Assembly: GCA_017501465.1 (NCBI GenBank)
Contig: JAFVWY010000015.1
Span: 171,422 to 221,771, forward strand
Direction: 5' to 3'
Length of the DNA: 50,350 nucleotides
DNA from: Bacilli bacterium
GTDB taxonomy: Bacteria; Bacillota_I; Bacilli_A; ML615J-28; CAG-313
Shown here: positions 7,385 through 50,350 of the stretch, piece after piece
How positions within the stretch are numbered: the first letter of the stretch is position 1
How the letters are laid out: each line of letters begins with the position of its first letter
Notes under the pieces: model-generated
Told to the model about the DNA's origin: nothing
Databases searched by the model: none
The model's input: only the letters and a program-made list of their open reading frames with translations
Program-made: the position numbers and the translations under genes

Positions 7385-7419
7385 TATAATTCAAGATAAT
7401 ATTAAATAGTATATAAAAT

Positions 7420-7500
7420 AAGTCACTGCCGTAGACAGTAGGTGAAAAACATTAGTTTTTCTTAATTTCCTACCGAGGAATTAAATCCGAAAAATTTCAG
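7420..7500 (+). promoter_or_regulatory. L10 leader RNA (rplJ-rplL autoregulation)
   Basis: The segment GCCGTAGACAGTAGGTG (7428-7444), then TTAATTTCCTACCGAGG (7462-7478), is the conserved core of the Gram-positive L10 leader. GTAGG (7438-7442) pairs with CCTAC (7469-7473), flanked by the purine-rich kink typical of the class. The L10-L12 complex binds this leader and lowers expression of rplJ-rplL. A TATAAT-like hexamer at 7385-7390 lacks a matching -35, so the leader is probably reached by transcription from rplK. Confidence 0.9.
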
Positions 7501-7512
7501 GAGGTGAAAACA

Positions 7513-28711: not shown

Positions 28712-31700
28712 ATGAAGAAGAAAATAATTATAATAATTGTTTCTTGTTTTCTTTTACTATCTATTGGTAGTGTATCACTTGTTTTGCTATTAGATGATGA
28801 TGATTCTACTAATGAAAACAATGAAATAATTGAAAAAGAATTAGAAAAATTATCTAAACCTCTTAATTTAGTAATTGACCAATATAGTCTTACTTGGAAT
28901 AAAGTTGAGAATGCTGAAGAATATTTAATAAATGTCGATAATTTACAATATTCTTCCAAGAGTAATAATTTTGATTTGACTGATAAAGTAAATGAAAATA
29001 GTATTATATCAGTTGTTGCACTGGGTAACGATAAATTTGATGATTCAGTTAAAAGTGTAGAGATCGTTTTTCGAAATCAAAAAGATGAAACACAAATTAA
29101 TCAAATATATTTAGAATTAAATGATTTATTAAATAAATACTTCGTCATAAAAAACAATATTCAAGAAAGTGTTTATAATATTGCTGAGAGAATATACATG
29201 CGAGGGTTAACTTCTAGTGATGCTTGCTTATTGATTCATGAGATTGACTCTATGCTAGAAAATGTTGATAAGTTATCTAATTTCAATAAGATAAATAATC
29301 TTCAAATGGTTTTTTTAGATATGGTGGATATTCTTTCTTTAGATGTGAATGAATATGCATTAGTTAGTGGATTGGTATACTTCTTTGAGGCGTATTCGAA
29401 AGTAGCATCTGAAAATGAAAAGATTAATTTAAATACTAGTTTTAAGACAGAGTATTATGATCTGTCTTTATATCAAACTAATTTTCAAACAATTTATCAA
29501 AAACTATCTTCATTAAAAGAATTTGATATTCAAAATGTTACTTCACTACTACATTATTATAAAATTTATCGCAATCAAGTAAGTAATATTGTTAATACTA
29601 TTGAAAAAACTAATCTTGATAATGTGAATACCGTATATAATGATGTACTCACACTTAAAAACATGTTGTGTGATTTATTATTAAATGAAATGCCGTTAGT
29701 TTTAGAGTTTGAAGGATTTAAAGCTATTTTTACTGATTTGTATAATTTGATTTTTGAAGGTTATCTTCAAGAAAAAGTAACTAGTGACGAAATTAATAGT
29801 TATTTTAACAACTTATATTCTGTAAACGAATATTATCTTAGTTTTTTAAATTCATTGGAAGATTCAGATTATAAAGTAATTGTGACAAGATTGTTATCAT
29901 TTGTTAACTCAATTAATTCAGATGATATTGATGGTTTTAAGGAAGTAATTGAATTAATGGATGCCAATAGTCCCAATTATATTTTAAATATAGTTATAAA
30001 ACATTTTGATAATGTTTTTATCGATTATGATTTAACTATTAATCAAGAATTTGTGGAAACGATTATAGATATTTTTCAAGAAGAAGACCCAGTTACTATA
30101 GTTAATAGATTAGTAGAGTATTTAGAAGTATTTGATTATATTGATCAAAATGAGGATATCCTTTATGAAGTTTTTGATTATTTGATATCCTTACTTCCTG
30201 ACTCAATTCAATCTGGGAAGGATTTAGGTGAATACTTTGAAAGTATTATAAATAGTATTAATTTAGAAGATTATTATGAAATTAGATATGAGGAAGTATT
30301 TAACGATCTAAATTTAGAAATAATTTTGAACTCAATACAAGAGTTTATTGAAGGTAATATTACACAAGATGAGCTAGAAAAGCAAATTATTAGTTTAATC
30401 GATGTCGATAAAGTATTAGTTTTTGATGTTGATAAACTAATATCAGATATTATTTCCTTGATTCAAGAGGATATGCCAAAATTAGCTGAATTTATCAAAG
30501 AAGTTCTATTACTAGATGAAATAACTATTAAAAATATTCTAGAAATTATGGGAATTGATCATCGGGTAGATGTTGATATTAATGGTTTTGTTGAAAATTT
30601 AAAAAATAAAATAGGTATTAATGTTGATGCCTTGTTCATTGAAAATAAAATTTTTGAATTTGTTGATAATGTAGTAGAAGAAATTAGGGGAAAAACGAGT
30701 AAAGTCGAAAAATATTTTAAAATCCTAACAATTTTTACCAACCCTAATTATGAATTTTCTGAAAATGATTTAGAAGAATTATTTAAAGAGGATACAATTG
30801 ATTTTGGCAGTTTATTTATCCTAATGGATCACTTAAAGGTTAAATATGCAAAATTCCAAATTAAGCATGATCCAATTTATGAAAATGGTTTAGATTTTAA
30901 TCTAAAACATCTTGAAGAAAATTTATTTAATTGTTTTGTTTATTTATACTTTGGTCAACATGCATATGCTGGCGAAGAATTTAGCTTATCAGTTGTTGAT
31001 TTAACTTATAAAATTGTTGATTTATATCAAAACTTTGATAAGTTTATTGAAATTATCGATCATTACGAAAATTTATTCGAAAGTATGGATATTCAATGGG
31101 ATGATTTGATTGATTTATATAATAAGGAAACTGAATTTAATGAATTGATGAATGTGTATAGAGAAGAACTAGACTATACTTATCAGTCATTAAAGTACAT
31201 TTTGGATGTTTTACCATTAGATGAAGTGATAAAACTAAAGTATTGTATTAATAATTTATTAGCATCATATGGTTATGAACAAACTCAAGAAATTTATCAA
31301 TTTATTAAAATAATTGAAGATTCTTACTATAAACTAATTGAAGAAATTGATACATTATATGGTGATTTTCTAGAAAAAGAAGAAGCTATTAAACGCTTAT
31401 ATCATAATACTCACGTATTGGTAGATCCAGTATATGAATACTATCAAGAGCTTAAAGAAATTTATTATAGTGATGGCGAATTAAGTGATGATGATATCAT
31501 TGATATCGTATCTAATGTTATTTCTAATAAAACTAAATTAAATAGTTTTTATAATCCAGTGATTATCCAAGAGATTGGTAGTGATTTGGATATTATATTT
31601 GGAGATCAAGTGATTGATTTTAATAAAGAAGTATTAGAAATAATTTTCTATTTCGATTTTATTTATAATAGGATTAATGCTTCTAACGCTGTATCAACCA

Positions 31701-32122
31701 CTGTCGGTTTAGCTCAAGATTTAATGAAGATATTAGAAGATGTAGATACTTTTAAAACAATTTTTATTGAATTACAAGAGTTATTAAATAATACAGAAAT
31801 ATCTAATGAAGACAAGAAAAATGAGTTTGATAAATTATATACTAAATTAATGGATACTTATGAATTAATTAAGACTAATTCTCTTTTGGTTGTTCAAGAT
31901 TTGGATCTGTTTATGTTAAAAGGAATTCAAGATTTAAGTCAAACTAATCCTGAATATACTCTTAGACAAGAAGAATTCTTATTTGAAGATGAACTAATAA
32001 AAGTTTTTGATAAGATGGATCAGATTATGAATAGTCTAGATGTGGAAAGTATTGAAGATTTAAATTTAGATTTTACTAGTATTATCATAAATTTATTACA
32101 AAATGTTGATATTCTTGAATAA
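28712..32122 (+). CDS. Very large membrane-anchored helical protein of unknown function
   Basis: I recognise no family for the bulk of this 1136-residue protein. Residues 4-27 form a signal anchor (KKKIIIIIVSC...SLVLLL) followed by an acidic DDDD patch; there is no proper lipobox, so it probably stays anchored with the rest outside. Residues about 47-118 look like a fibronectin-III-like module (YSLTWNKVENAEEYLINVD), the same pattern found twice in the lipoprotein at 34588. From about 125 on it is predicted all-helical, rich in Leu, Ile, Asp and Glu, with few Cys and no evident enzymatic motif. It follows the FtsX-type permease by nine bases behind AGGAGG and is probably its partner or substrate. 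It ends at a bidirectional terminator. Confidence 0.7.
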   Translation: MKKKIIIIIVSCFLLLSIGSVSLVLLLDDDDSTNENNEIIEKELEKLSKPLNLVIDQYSLTWNKVENAEEYLINVDNLQYSSKSNNFDLTDKVNENSIISVVALGNDKFDDSVKSVEIVFRNQKDETQINQIYLELNDLLNKYFVIKNNIQESVYNIAERIYMRGLTSSDACLLIHEIDSMLENVDKLSNFNKINNLQMVFLDMVDILSLDVNEYALVSGLVYFFEAYSKVASENEKINLNTSFKTEYYDLSLYQTNFQTIYQKLSSLKEFDIQNVTSLLHYYKIYRNQVSNIVNTIEKTNLDNVNTVYNDVLTLKNMLCDLLLNEMPLVLEFEGFKAIFTDLYNLIFEGYLQEKVTSDEINSYFNNLYSVNEYYLSFLNSLEDSDYKVIVTRLLSFVNSINSDDIDGFKEVIELMDANSPNYILNIVIKHFDNVFIDYDLTINQEFVETIIDIFQEEDPVTIVNRLVEYLEVFDYIDQNEDILYEVFDYLISLLPDSIQSGKDLGEYFESIINSINLEDYYEIRYEEVFNDLNLEIILNSIQEFIEGNITQDELEKQIISLIDVDKVLVFDVDKLISDIISLIQEDMPKLAEFIKEVLLLDEITIKNILEIMGIDHRVDVDINGFVENLKNKIGINVDALFIENKIFEFVDNVVEEIRGKTSKVEKYFKILTIFTNPNYEFSENDLEELFKEDTIDFGSLFILMDHLKVKYAKFQIKHDPIYENGLDFNLKHLEENLFNCFVYLYFGQHAYAGEEFSLSVVDLTYKIVDLYQNFDKFIEIIDHYENLFESMDIQWDDLIDLYNKETEFNELMNVYREELDYTYQSLKYILDVLPLDEVIKLKYCINNLLASYGYEQTQEIYQFIKIIEDSYYKLIEEIDTLYGDFLEKEEAIKRLYHNTHVLVDPVYEYYQELKEIYYSDGELSDDDIIDIVSNVISNKTKLNSFYNPVIIQEIGSDLDIIFGDQVIDFNKEVLEIIFYFDFIYNRINASNAVSTTVGLAQDLMKILEDVDTFKTIFIELQELLNNTEISNEDKKNEFDKLYTKLMDTYELIKTNSLLVVQDLDLFMLKGIQDLSQTNPEYTLRQEEFLFEDELIKVFDKMDQIMNSLDVESIEDLNLDFTSIIINLLQNVDILE

Positions 32123-32150
32123 AAAAATAACCACTAAGTGGTTATTTTTT
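32121..32150. terminator. Bidirectional terminator between the large protein gene and the Crp/Fnr gene
   Basis: AATAACCAC (32126-32134) pairs with GTGGTTATT (32138-32146) around TAA, flanked by A7 on the left and T6 on the right. It serves both convergent genes. Confidence 0.9.
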
Positions 32151-32160
32151 ATTTTACTGG

Positions 32161-32757
32161 TTATATTAATAAAGTAATGGTGTTTTTCTTTTTAATAATG
32201 ATATTTTCATTTTCTAGATTTGTTAGTTCTCTAGAAACACTAGGTCTTGGCAATGATAAAATCATAGCTAGTTTTGTCACACTAGGAATTTTGATAGTTT
32301 TTGAATGTTGTTTTTTAGCCATTGAAGAAAAATAATATAAGATACGATCTTTAATGTTCTTATGAATAAGTAATTTATTTTGTTGTTTGATAAATAAAGA
32401 TGTGTTTGATAGTTCTTCAAGATAGGCCTCTAAAAACATTTGATTTGTTTGAAGTAAATTTATTAGTTCTTTTTTGGTAATTAATACAACTGTTGTCTTT
32501 TTTTCAGCAATAATATCTCCCAAATAGTAAGGATCTTCACTAAAAATTAATACATTACCAAAAACATCATGTTTTTCTAATAAAGAAATTGTTTCTTCTT
32601 TCTCCATGTAAGTAATAGTGGTGATTTTGACTAATCCTGATAAAATAATACCAATCGATTCACATTTTTCAAAACTAGAAAATATTATGTCTCCTGTATT
32701 GTATGTTATAGTTTTATATTTACTTAATAGATTTAATACATCGTTAGATAGTTTCAT
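32161..32757 (-). CDS. Crp/Fnr family transcription regulator
   Basis: A 198-residue regulator. The N-terminal cyclic-nucleotide-binding-like barrel spans about 10-110 (TYNTGDIIFSSFEKCESIGIILSGLVKIT). A long dimer helix follows (about 110-140). The C-terminal winged helix contains SVTKLAMILSLPRPSVSRELTNLENENII (about 160-190), where RPSVSREL is the recognition helix. No N-terminal cysteine cluster of the Fnr type is seen, so it is unlikely to be a 4Fe-4S oxygen sensor; the ligand is unknown. It is shorter than E. coli Crp (209). It is divergent from the solute-binding protein gene, with a palindrome between that overlaps its own -35 box, suggesting autorepression and control of the neighbour. 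Confidence 0.88.
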   Translation of the reverse strand: MKLSNDVLNLLSKYKTITYNTGDIIFSSFEKCESIGIILSGLVKITTITYMEKEETISLLEKHDVFGNVLIFSEDPYYLGDIIAEKKTTVVLITKKELINLLQTNQMFLEAYLEELSNTSLFIKQQNKLLIHKNIKDRILYYFSSMAKKQHSKTIKIPSVTKLAMILSLPRPSVSRELTNLENENIIIKKKNTITLLI

Positions 32758-32772
32758 ATTTCACCTCAATAT

Positions 32773-32801
32773 ATTATAACATATTTATTTAAAAGTGTAA
32801 C
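32773..32801 (-). promoter_or_regulatory. Promoter of the Crp/Fnr gene
   Basis: On the minus strand TATAAT (32773-32778), with TGT before it, and a weak -35 GTTACA (32796-32801) 17 bases upstream. The -35 lies entirely within the palindromic operator. Confidence 0.7.
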
Positions 32802-32811
32802 AAATGTTACA
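32796..32811. promoter_or_regulatory. Palindromic operator, probable binding site of the Crp/Fnr regulator
   Basis: TGTAACA and TGTTACA form a perfect 7-base dyad around AA. It fits the two-fold sites of Crp/Fnr proteins (the GTA-N8-TAC form is known from the NtcA branch). Its centre is about 41.5 bases before the expected start of the rightward transcript, the classic class II activator position, and it covers the -35 box of the leftward regulator gene. Confidence 0.7.
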
Positions 32812-32829
32812 TATTTATTTTATTTTATT

Positions 32830-32838
32830 TGATATAAT
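32830..32838 (+). promoter_or_regulatory. Extended -10 promoter of the solute-binding protein operon
   Basis: TGATATAAT (TATAAT 32833-32838) with no recognisable -35 at the proper distance. The Crp/Fnr palindrome replaces it, which fits an activator-dependent promoter. The leader before the ATG is only about 20 bases, too short for a riboswitch. Confidence 0.72.
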
Positions 32839-32864
32839 AATAATGAAAAGAAAGAGGTTTGATT

Positions 32865-33794
32865 ATGAAAAAAGTATTAAGTTTTTTATCAATAATAGTA
32901 TTTACTATTATTTTAATGGGTTGTGAATTTGGAGGAGGCGGTAAATCTTATAAGGTTATCGTTCCAACTGGAGCTCCATCTTTAGCGATTGCTAATTTTA
33001 TTCAAGAAAAAGAAGAAAATGTAACTGTTGATATTGTAAGTGGTAGTGAACCATTAACTGCTGCATTCACAAATGCTGATTATGATATTATCGTTGCACC
33101 TGTAAATCTTGGTTTAAAGTTCTATAATAGTGTTGAATCATTTAAATATTCATTTTATAAACCGATTGTAGGATGTAATTTCTATATTTTATCAACTGAA
33201 GTTTCAAGCATTGAAGAATTAGATGGTAAAAGTATGCATGCCTTTAATAAAATGGCAACACCTGGTGTTATGTTACAAACAATTTTTGGACACTATGATT
33301 TAAATGTTGATGTAACATATGAGTCATCAGTAACAGTTGCTAATTCACTATTAACTGCAGGAGAAGCAAAGACAATTTTAACTGCTGAACCATCTAAGAC
33401 TACTTTAATGAGTAAAAATAACTATCATGTTATTGATATTGCAGCTATTTGGAGAGAAATATCTGGTCACAATTATAATGCATTACAAGCTGGCGTATTT
33501 GTAAAAAGCGAATTAAAGAATGATCGAAATGTTAAAAATATGTTAGAAGAGATGGAAAATTCTATTGAGTTAGCTTATACTAATCCACTTAAACTTGCGG
33601 AAGCTGCCAAGGCAGTTGATGATGGCTTTGCAAAACAAACAGTTGAAAATTTAACAAAAGCTATTCCTAATTGTAATTTCTTAAGACATGAATTAAATAA
33701 AGAAGAAGTTGCATATTATTTCCAAAAAATTATGGATTTAGGTATGCAAGGTAGTTTTGGAGGAAAACTTCCTGATGAAGGATTCTACTATTAA
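32865..33794 (+). CDS. ABC transporter solute-binding lipoprotein (NMT1/SsuA-like)
   Basis: A 309-residue lipoprotein with signal peptide and lipobox ILMGC (Cys20), followed by a glycine-rich linker. The mature part starts YKVIVPTGAPSLAIANFIQ and shows the two-lobe pattern of the NMT1/THI5-like and SsuA/TauA group (DYDIIVAPVNLGLKF, later ELDGKSMHAFNKMATPG, then ILTAEPSKTTL). These bind thiamine pyrimidine precursors, sulfonates or nitrate; the ligand here cannot be deduced. ATG 32865 follows AAAGAGG. The permease gene overlaps its 3' end. Transcription is probably controlled by the divergent Crp/Fnr protein. Confidence 0.85.
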   Translation: MKKVLSFLSIIVFTIILMGCEFGGGGKSYKVIVPTGAPSLAIANFIQEKEENVTVDIVSGSEPLTAAFTNADYDIIVAPVNLGLKFYNSVESFKYSFYKPIVGCNFYILSTEVSSIEELDGKSMHAFNKMATPGVMLQTIFGHYDLNVDVTYESSVTVANSLLTAGEAKTILTAEPSKTTLMSKNNYHVIDIAAIWREISGHNYNALQAGVFVKSELKNDRNVKNMLEEMENSIELAYTNPLKLAEAAKAVDDGFAKQTVENLTKAIPNCNFLRHELNKEEVAYYFQKIMDLGMQGSFGGKLPDEGFYY

Positions 33795-34527
33795 GAGGTT
33801 TATTTATTCCTCAACAACAGTATTAATTATCTTTTTGTTGTGGATTATATTATCTGCAACAAAAGACAATGCTTTAATATATCCAAGCATTAAACAAATT
33901 TGGCATGCTCTGATTGGTTGTTTTGATTTGAAGGGCTTAACTGTTTTAAGCTTAACTATCTTTAGGGTTATTATTACAATTATTGCATCCTTTTTAGTAT
34001 CTAGTTTTATAATGATTTTATATGTTAAAAGACCTACTAGTTATGCGTTTTTCTCACCAATTATTAAAATAATGAGAACTGTCCCATTTATTTGTATTTC
34101 TATTTTTATTATTTTAATATTTGATCGTCAGATAGCTCCTTACGTAATTGCGTTTTTATTAACAATCCCAATTATTTGTGAAGGAATTAAAAGTGGAATT
34201 GATCTTTTGGATAAGAATTTAGTTGATGATTTAGCGATGCATAATATTAGTTTAAGACAAAAAATATTTTTAGTTTATATGCCAATGTTGATTCCGACAA
34301 TTGTTTTAACTTTTCTACAAACATTTGGTTTAGGGTTTAAGGTTATTATTATGGGTGAATGTTATGCGCAAACTAAGAATAGTTTAGGCTTATATTTATT
34401 TCATGCAAAAGAATACTTAGCAATGGATGAGCTGATTGCGTGGACAATTGTAATAGTTGTAATTGTAGCAATTGTCGAAACTATGATTAATTACTATAAC
34501 AAAAAGAGAAATCAATTGATTTATTAA
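33775..34527 (+). CDS. ABC transporter permease (SsuC/TauC-like)
   Basis: Integral membrane subunit with six likely helices over 250 residues, in the BPD-transport family. NALIYPSIKQIWHALIG (about 30-46) is typical of the SsuC/TauC/ThiX group. The cytoplasmic loop LAMHNISLRQKIFLVYMPMLIPTI (about 155-178) is the EAA-type loop that docks the ATPase. I use ATG 33775, preceded by GGAGGA (33759-33764); an upstream TTG would lengthen the overlap. It overlaps the binding-protein gene by 20 bases. No matching ATPase gene is adjacent: the next genes are a nucleotidase lipoprotein and a radical SAM protein, so the ATPase must be encoded elsewhere. Confidence 0.87.
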   Translation: MKDSTIKRFIYSSTTVLIIFLLWIILSATKDNALIYPSIKQIWHALIGCFDLKGLTVLSLTIFRVIITIIASFLVSSFIMILYVKRPTSYAFFSPIIKIMRTVPFICISIFIILIFDRQIAPYVIAFLLTIPIICEGIKSGIDLLDKNLVDDLAMHNISLRQKIFLVYMPMLIPTIVLTFLQTFGLGFKVIIMGECYAQTKNSLGLYLFHAKEYLAMDELIAWTIVIVVIVAIVETMINYYNKKRNQLIY

Positions 34528-34587: not shown

Positions 34588-36483
34588 ATGAAAAAACTAG
34601 TTTTACGTATTATAGGTATTTTTTTATGTGCTTTCATGTTAGCTGCCTGTGATTTCAACGGCACTACTAATGGTGGTTCAACAGAAATTACTACTTTGGA
34701 AACTCCTACCGTAATGTTGGTGGATAACCTTTTAAAGTGGAATGAAGTTGAAAATGCATCTTATTATGAGGTATATGTTAATAACACTATAAAGGAAAAA
34801 GTTACTGCATTAGAATATGATTTTACATATTTAACAGCAGGGACTTATACTTTAAAGGTTCGTGCATGTAATGATGCTTCTACTTTTAAAAATAGTAATT
34901 TTGCGGCTATAAAATTCGTCAAAGAGTTAACAGATAGCGAAAAAACTAAACTTGCTGTTCCAATTCTTAGAATTGAAAACAATGTTTTAAAATGGAATAG
35001 TGTTTTTAATGCGGTAGAATATGAAATTTTAGTGGATGATCAATTTGTAACAAAAACTTCTAATTTAGAGTTTTCATTTTTGAATTTATTAGATGGTAAT
35101 CATATAGTAAAGGTTCGTTCTTTAGGCGATGATAGTAAATTTTTGCCTAGTGATTATGTTATAATTGAGTTTACTCCGGGCTCTAATACAAAAAATGATG
35201 ATTATACTGTCTTTATGATTAATGATACCCATGGCGCTTTTCAAACAGGAGACTTCCCAGGATTAGCTAAAGTCCAAACTATTATTAAAAATTTAGAAAA
35301 TACTAATGGTGAAATTATTAAAGTTGCTAACGGTGATTTATTTCAAGGATCTTATGTATCTAATATTTTATATGGCTTACCAATTATTGATGGCTTAAAT
35401 GAAATGGAATTTGATGCTTTTGTTATTGGTAATCATGATTTTGATTGGGGTTTAGATAAAATAAAAAATTATTATGATGGCAATTTATCTAATGGCGAAG
35501 CAACATTCCCAGTATTAGGTGCAAATGTTATTGATAAAAAAACCAATGAAATGGTAGATTGGTTTGAACCATATACTATTGTTGAAAAAAATGGAGTCAA
35601 AGTTGGTATTATTGGTATAATTGGTTATGAATTAGAAAGTAGCATTTTAGCTGAAAATGTAGCTGATTATGAATTTATTTACCCCGTGACACTTGTTAGT
35701 GAATATGCAAAAGAATTAAGAGAAGAATTAGGTTGCGATTCTGTTATAGTAAGTATTCATGATTATGATCAAGATTTAAATAATGCTTTAGCCAGATTAA
35801 GTGGCACTTCAGCTATAGATATGATCCTATGTGGACACACACATCAAAGTATAACTACTACAATTACTGGTTCTAATGGAAAGAATATTCCGGTTGTACA
35901 AAATAGGGATAAAAATCGAAATGCAGTTAGTGTTAATTTGAATTTGACAACTTTTAACTATAATTCTAAAGTGTATTATCCTGAAGATTATAAAGAAGAT
36001 AGTGATTTCTTAGAACTTGTTTCTAAATATCAAAAGTATATCGATGAAGGTAATCGAGTGATTGGAAATGCTTCCTCATATCTTAATAAGTCAACACTAG
36101 GTAAGTTAGCTGTTGATTCTATGATGGAAAAATATGATGTTAGCATGTCAATTATAAATACGGCTGGCATTAGAGCAACAATTAATAGCGGAACTATTAC
36201 AGTAGCTGAAGTGTTTGAGGTTTTCCCTTTTAATAATGAAATTATAATTGCTGAGTTAACTGGTGCTCAAATTAAGAGTATGTATAATAGAAATGCGGAT
36301 TTCTTATATGTGAATAGTGGATTTAACATTAATAACTTTAATAATACAACAGTTTATAAGGTTGCAGTTATTGACTATGTTTTCACGGGAACTTATTATA
36401 AAGAATTCCAAAATGCCCCTTATACCGATACAAATGTATTGTTAAGAGACATATTAATAGAATATATAGAAACAAATTTTTAA
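34588..36483 (+). CDS. Surface lipoprotein with two Fn3-like modules and a 5'-nucleotidase/metallophosphatase
   Basis: A 631-residue lipoprotein (lipobox LAAC, Cys21). Two fibronectin-III-like modules follow (about 37-110 and 122-203), with the patterns LLKWNEVENASYYEVYVN and VLKWNSVFNAVEYEILVD. Next is a calcineurin-type phosphatase domain: NDTHG (about 212), NGDLFQGS (about 250), GNHDFDWG (about 283), SIHDYDQ and GHTHQS (about 415). The C-terminal 5'-nucleotidase domain contains INTAGIRATINSG and FEVFPFNNE. Family members hydrolyse nucleotides or nucleotide sugars outside the cell so that nucleosides and phosphate can be taken up. Good Shine-Dalgarno (AAGGAG). The radical SAM gene follows after nine bases. 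Confidence 0.88.
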   Translation: MKKLVLRIIGIFLCAFMLAACDFNGTTNGGSTEITTLETPTVMLVDNLLKWNEVENASYYEVYVNNTIKEKVTALEYDFTYLTAGTYTLKVRACNDASTFKNSNFAAIKFVKELTDSEKTKLAVPILRIENNVLKWNSVFNAVEYEILVDDQFVTKTSNLEFSFLNLLDGNHIVKVRSLGDDSKFLPSDYVIIEFTPGSNTKNDDYTVFMINDTHGAFQTGDFPGLAKVQTIIKNLENTNGEIIKVANGDLFQGSYVSNILYGLPIIDGLNEMEFDAFVIGNHDFDWGLDKIKNYYDGNLSNGEATFPVLGANVIDKKTNEMVDWFEPYTIVEKNGVKVGIIGIIGYELESSILAENVADYEFIYPVTLVSEYAKELREELGCDSVIVSIHDYDQDLNNALARLSGTSAIDMILCGHTHQSITTTITGSNGKNIPVVQNRDKNRNAVSVNLNLTTFNYNSKVYYPEDYKEDSDFLELVSKYQKYIDEGNRVIGNASSYLNKSTLGKLAVDSMMEKYDVSMSIINTAGIRATINSGTITVAEVFEVFPFNNEIIIAELTGAQIKSMYNRNADFLYVNSGFNINNFNNTTVYKVAVIDYVFTGTYYKEFQNAPYTDTNVLLRDILIEYIETNF

Positions 36484-50266: not shown

Positions 50267-50350
50267 TTTATTGAGAGTTTGATCCTGGCTCAGGATTAAC
50301 GCTGGCGGCATGCCTAATACATGCAAGTCGAACGAGAGTAGCAATACTCT
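50267..50350 (+). rRNA. 16S ribosomal RNA, 5' end only
   Basis: The sequence GAGAGTTTGATCCTGGCTCAG (50273 onward) followed by GATTAACGCTGGCGGCATGC and TAATACATGCAAGTCGAACG is the standard 5' end of bacterial 16S rRNA. The start is placed at about 50267 by comparison with Bacillus; the mature end was not determined. The gene continues beyond the window. Confidence 0.98.

Follow-up and report, generated by a model that had tools for sequence, protein, structure and literature searches.

The Listeria PrfA box (TTAACA-N2-TGTTAA) and the cyanobacterial NtcA box are palindromes with a core similar to that of the site described here, and both have class II placement. In CRP, the residues that bind cAMP are Glu72, Arg82 and Ser83. 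At class II promoters of the gal type, the site of E. coli CRP is centred at −41.5, as stated in PMC7192510, and PMC11253593 describes how Arg180 of CRP contacts G2 of the half-site TGTGA and how Glu181 and Arg185 contact the G4:C4 pair. For another regulator, HcpR, Met68 is named as the heme residue in PMC12750200.

The locus compared here with these systems is located in a window of 50,350 nucleotides, that is, the whole stretch of DNA that was analysed, in which a 107-bp intergenic region (32758–32864) separates two divergent genes. The gene on the minus strand (32161–32757) encodes a Crp/Fnr-family regulator of 198 aa with the recognition helix RPSVSRE, and the gene on the plus strand (32865–33794) encodes a lipoprotein substrate-binding protein (SBP) with a VitK2_biosynth/NMT1-type fold; the latter is followed on the same strand by the gene of an ABC permease (BPD_transp_1, 33775–34527), which begins before the SBP gene has ended and whose similarity to SaoP/TauC is weak. 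Between the divergent genes lies the putative operator TGTAACAAATGTTACA (32796–32811, no strand), recognised by its sequence and by the retention of the palindrome in relatives; it is an inverted repeat of 7 bp with a 2-bp centre, that is to say, TGTAA-N6-TTACA. It is proposed that this dedicated Crp/Fnr-type regulator would, very probably, activate the importer in the class II manner and repress its own gene from the one palindrome. A dimer with a single target would bind between its own gene and the divergent sbp-permease operon; placed at −41.5, it would replace the missing −35 contact and recruit RNA polymerase to the importer promoter, and the same dimer would block the regulator promoter, at the −35 box in the window genus and at the start site in most relatives.

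As for the surroundings, a terminator-like hairpin (32122–32150, plus strand) lies between the 3′ end of the regulator gene and an upstream ORF of 1136 aa (28712–32122), which adjoins an FtsX/MacB-type permease gene, is kept in the congener L047 and has no match in Pfam or NCBIfam. A 5′-nucleotidase/UshA-like gene (34588–36483), also present in L047, is found downstream of the permease gene. Elsewhere in the window there are a Ribosomal protein L10 leader (7411–7509) and, at the window end, the start of a 16S rRNA gene (50267–50350).

On the importer side, the −10 box TATAAT (32833–32838, plus strand) stands 21 bp after the operator and is preceded by TG at 32830–32831. With 32838 counted as −7, the SBP transcript is predicted to start at about 32845, and the operator centre (32803.5) falls at −41.5; the initial annotation had placed TGTAACA-AA-TGTTACA at this distance from the SBP start, and it is confirmed at 32796–32811. 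Its description of an extended −10 with no −35 also holds, the best −35 hexamer at a spacing of 16–18 bp agreeing with TTGACA at 1/6 positions. These are the features of a class II Crp-type site, centred at −41.5 from a predicted start and with no functional −35. The spacing is kept across the class set of 55 Crp/SBP intergenic regions, 52 of which have a −10 (at least 5/6) exactly 21 bp after the operator; two of the exceptions (L081 and L250) have it at 22 bp, and L235 has it at neither distance. In the first set of 38 loci, composed of 21 loci of alignment A3 and 17 from a second family, such a −10 occurs at exactly 21 bp in 37 (as exact TATAAT in 35), with 1.8 expected by chance from shuffled flanks and at most 9 found at any other offset. 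Mean identity over these 38 loci is 0.85 in the operator vs. 0.45 in the spacer. Moreover, the best importer-side −35 is at most a 3/6 match in 54 of the 55 loci, and a TG before the −10 is kept in just 17 of them. The class set was completed with loci from outside the order: 40 were fetched from 150 of the 395 class genomes with an SBP match, selected by score and family and therefore non-random, and after setting aside 19 with no recognised Crp neighbour, 3 repeats of named loci and L266, 17 were added to reach 55. In L204, which carries two palindromes, the importer-proximal one was taken. One of the 19 set aside for want of a recognised Crp neighbour, L233, does carry an operator, with TATTAT standing 21 bp from it.

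On the regulator side, the predicted promoter of the window consists of the −35 box GTTACA (32796–32801, minus strand), which lies wholly within the operator as the initial annotation had it, and the −10 box TATAAT (32773–32778, minus strand; TG at 32781–32780). This GTTACA-17 bp-TATAAT arrangement is the top promoter-like site of the intergenic region (10/12) and implies a regulator leader of about 9 nt (predicted start at about 32766). The congener L061 has the same TATAAT 17 bp beyond its operator, an exact match that would arise at this spacing by chance with a probability of about 0.005 in each of the two; this probability was used in place of the layout score, by which alone the layout was seen in 4 loci vs. 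3.97 expected. The operator over the regulator −35 is limited to these two loci of the window genus, neither of which has the layout found in 30 of the 38 loci, where a TTGACA-like/TATAAT-like regulator promoter has its −10 ending 6–9 bp before the operator (1.5 loci expected) and the operator covers the regulator start site. In this second layout, the importer −10 would lie inside the spacer of the regulator promoter, and use of one promoter probably precludes use of the other. An operator at the regulator start site in most relatives equally predicts autorepression. It could be that activation of the importer is real and that the overlap with the regulator −35 is incidental, with no autorepression, and the promoter of the window genus is indeed weakly supported, as it is seen in two related genomes and implies a leader of just some 9 nt; this is nonetheless unlikely, since the separate layout of the 30 loci puts the operator at the regulator start and the block thus recurs in two designs.

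The main argument for a switch with opposite effects is that the predicted activator spacing is constant while the predicted repressor geometry has shifted, which points to activation of the importer and repression of the regulator. If both divergent genes were repressed instead, with the protein covering the importer promoter from about −49 to −34 and blocking the polymerase until a ligand released it, the position of the operator over the −35 region of that promoter, a place where repressors also act, would be explained. However, double repression needs no one-base precision, and the importer spacing is exactly 21 bp in 52/55 loci; the regulator side, by comparison, slides, with gaps of 6–9 bp or a position on the opposite side of the operator, and there is no −35 in the importer promoter for a protein to block. 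Such a double repressor is therefore considered very unlikely, and class II activation of the importer with repression of the regulator gene is the preferred reading.

The initial annotation had suggested that the regulon be defined by a genome-wide search for the palindrome, and this search returned one intergenic site. In the window genome (1.56 Mb), the exact operator motif occurs once; TGTAACANNTGTTACA at no more than 2 mismatches gave 39 matches, against 25 for the reversed control pattern, and 38 of the 39 are inside ORFs of at least 120 aa (35 outside the window, where L059 duplicates L002, and 3 inside, at about 16547, 26419 and 45500, as compared with the ORF list), the sole intergenic one being this operator. 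A wider regulon in the own genome was rejected on this coding position of 38/39 sites. Of the 33 further sites listed for family relatives, 16 were checked, and every one of these proved to be coding. In the PF00027 profile search of the window genome, the regulator gene was the one Crp/Fnr gene found. Since the completeness of the assembly is 96.6%, a target may have been overlooked.

The operator and the regulator also occur together in relatives, the named ones being mostly gut Bacilli MAGs, plus Anaeroplasma bactoclasticum ATCC 27112 (L078). In the family, some Crp match was found in 15/15 genomes and a strong orthologue in 13; the divergent Crp/SBP/permease triad is kept in 13/13 (the window and 12 relatives), with the palindrome at the matching place in all 13 (exact consensus in 11, a variant in 2) and TATAAT exactly 21 bp from it in each. 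In the order (43 genomes), SBP is present in 35 and a regulator orthologue, defined as scoring above 100 bits and standing beside SBP, in 30. The initial annotation had made its reading depend on the conservation of the site in relatives, and the exact operator TGTAACAWWTGTTAC is indeed present in 28 of the 30 order genomes with the regulator and in 0 of the 13 without it. The other two genomes (G001 and G005) have the orthologue with altered palindromes (TGTAAG/TGTAAT) and the helix RPTVSK. There are two extra exact operator sites in the order: that of L212 is coding, and that of L211 is the TGTAACATTTGTTACA palindrome at 1014, between the first two of three c-di-GMP-I riboswitches (919–992, 1134–1207 and 1269–1343).

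The regulator itself belongs to the Crp/Fnr superfamily by its PF00027 score (54.9 bits, cut-off 27.5), while HTH_Crp_2 (PF13545) reaches 26.3 bits, slightly under the Pfam cut-off of 27. The best Foldseek matches of its predicted model are CAP chains (E 8.9e-16). A cAMP-dependent CRP was rejected, as the positions of Glu72, Arg82 and Ser83 align with Asn/Asp/Gln/His, Tyr and Leu, respectively; with a sensor pocket devoid of the cAMP contacts, the signal is probably not cAMP. The match to the NtcA model is weak (16.2 bits vs. a cut-off of 244.95). Among the nearest solved sequence relatives are 1o5l and 9day_A ('Transcriptional regulator, putative'), the latter of which we take to be P. gingivalis HcpR. 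Membership of the HcpR group was rejected, as no hcp (PF03063) match was found in the genome and no other intergenic operator-like site occurs at no more than 2 mismatches.

Changes in the recognition helix go with changes in the operator. A4 stands in both half-sites in 46 of the 55 loci, including all 43 loci with Pro181; the remaining A4 loci are L063 with Val181, L071 with Glu181 and no Arg185, and L192 with a truncated protein. All six loci with Glu181 and Arg185 (L076, L078, L079, L234, L245 and L260) have G4 in both half-sites, and mixed half-sites occur in 3/55 (L236, L238 and L268), which were counted with no assignment of residue 181. The Glu181 loci are spread over several families, and these counts are of loci, not of independent changes. 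The pairing of Glu181 and Arg185 with G4, and of Pro181 with A4, is expected from the CRP contacts given in PMC11253593. The covariation of residue 181 (Glu/Pro) with operator base 4 ties the regulator to this operator. That the palindrome is instead the site of another factor, or an RNA hairpin, is scarcely credible, since its presence tracks the regulator genome by genome, helix residues 181 and 185 covary with it, and it lies upstream of the predicted importer start. The switch put forward in the initial annotation, with the transporter turned on and the regulator turned down, is supported by the spacing, the co-occurrence and the helix/operator covariation, its direction being inferred from these comparisons.

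With regard to the importer, the SBP model (mean pLDDT 89.7) is closest to 3hn0, followed by PqqT, MqnA-like, Thi5 and TauA proteins, and these structural neighbours of a predicted model do not name the ligand. No ATPase gene is present in the sbp-permease operon or beside it; an ATPase gene follows the permease gene in four relatives (L236, L238, L257 and L268). The ATPase would be supplied from elsewhere in the genome, and a possible source is L086, a complete tauBCA-like operon with a TauB-like ATPase. There is also an orphan MsmX-like ATPase at L085; the names at both loci come from reading the sequences. A Sao (organometal) transporter was rejected, as the permease scores 46.2 bits vs. 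a cut-off of 295 for the SaoP equivalog. The search of the Sao literature returned unrelated work alone. A Bacilli-type SBP of this family was also found on L082, a contig labelled Gammaproteobacteria, which is probably a binning error.

The importer genes are frequently, though not universally, associated with hydA. Many loci encode HydA and HydB, identified by PF02906 and Complex1_51K, upstream of Crp (e.g., L048–L051, L053, L076, L079, L188, L191 and L196). In all five order genomes that have SBP but lack a Crp orthologue scoring over 100 bits (G006 and G020–G023), SBP is directly behind hydA, as in 10 of the 19 loci from outside the order that have no recognised Crp neighbour, and no operator was seen before SBP in either group (for G006 and G020–G023, as read from the upstream sequences). 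SBP and permease genes directly behind the hydA of an electron-bifurcating-type [FeFe] hydrogenase were observed in the Crp-less loci L189, L193, L195, L197, L200 and L229–L231, and in L241–L243, L252, L253, L258 and L264, with no operator seen there. The window genome carries hydA on a different contig, and in several loci (e.g., L052, L054, L055, L187, L203, L206 and L207) the gene was not seen in the fetched stretch. Since the hydABC operon, in loci that lack Crp, often incorporates the importer genes, the cargo or the signal may be hydrogenase-linked, and the importer would have a role in hydrogenase-linked metabolism. We advance tentatively, and with rather less than even confidence, a class-wide, undescribed module in which a Crp-type sensor that stands alone would, with a two-gene importer, serve the electron-bifurcating [FeFe]-hydrogenase HydABC, with cargo and signal in hydrogenase-linked redox metabolism and with a natural swap of the recognition code (Glu181/G4 vs. 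Pro181/A4).

In the literature searched, we did not find the regulator, its one-operator regulon, the code covariation or the hydrogenase tie described, which does not imply their absence from print. The mechanism itself is textbook; the example is new, and the link to hydrogenase genes is unexpected. Dozens of orthologous one-target switches offer a natural test set for the co-change of Crp-family protein and operator, and also for the way in which an activator site is kept to one base while its repressor role moves. In addition, the recurrent importer–hydA tie offers a starting point for asking what this importer, so far uncharacterised, may do in anaerobic gut Bacilli.

Compared with known systems, the regulator shares with E. 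coli CRP the Crp fold, the 5-N6-5 palindrome and the −41.5 placement, but it has one target rather than a global regulon, the half-site TGTAA and replaced cAMP-pocket residues. PrfA and NtcA are likewise other regulators, with other effectors and other regulons. The importer resembles TauABC, SsuABC and NMT1-type importers and SaoP in the folds of SBP and permease; it differs from them in a permease far under the cut-offs and an operon with no ATPase. With HcpR-type regulators, the regulator shares the local control of a neighbouring gene, whereas its target is an importer.
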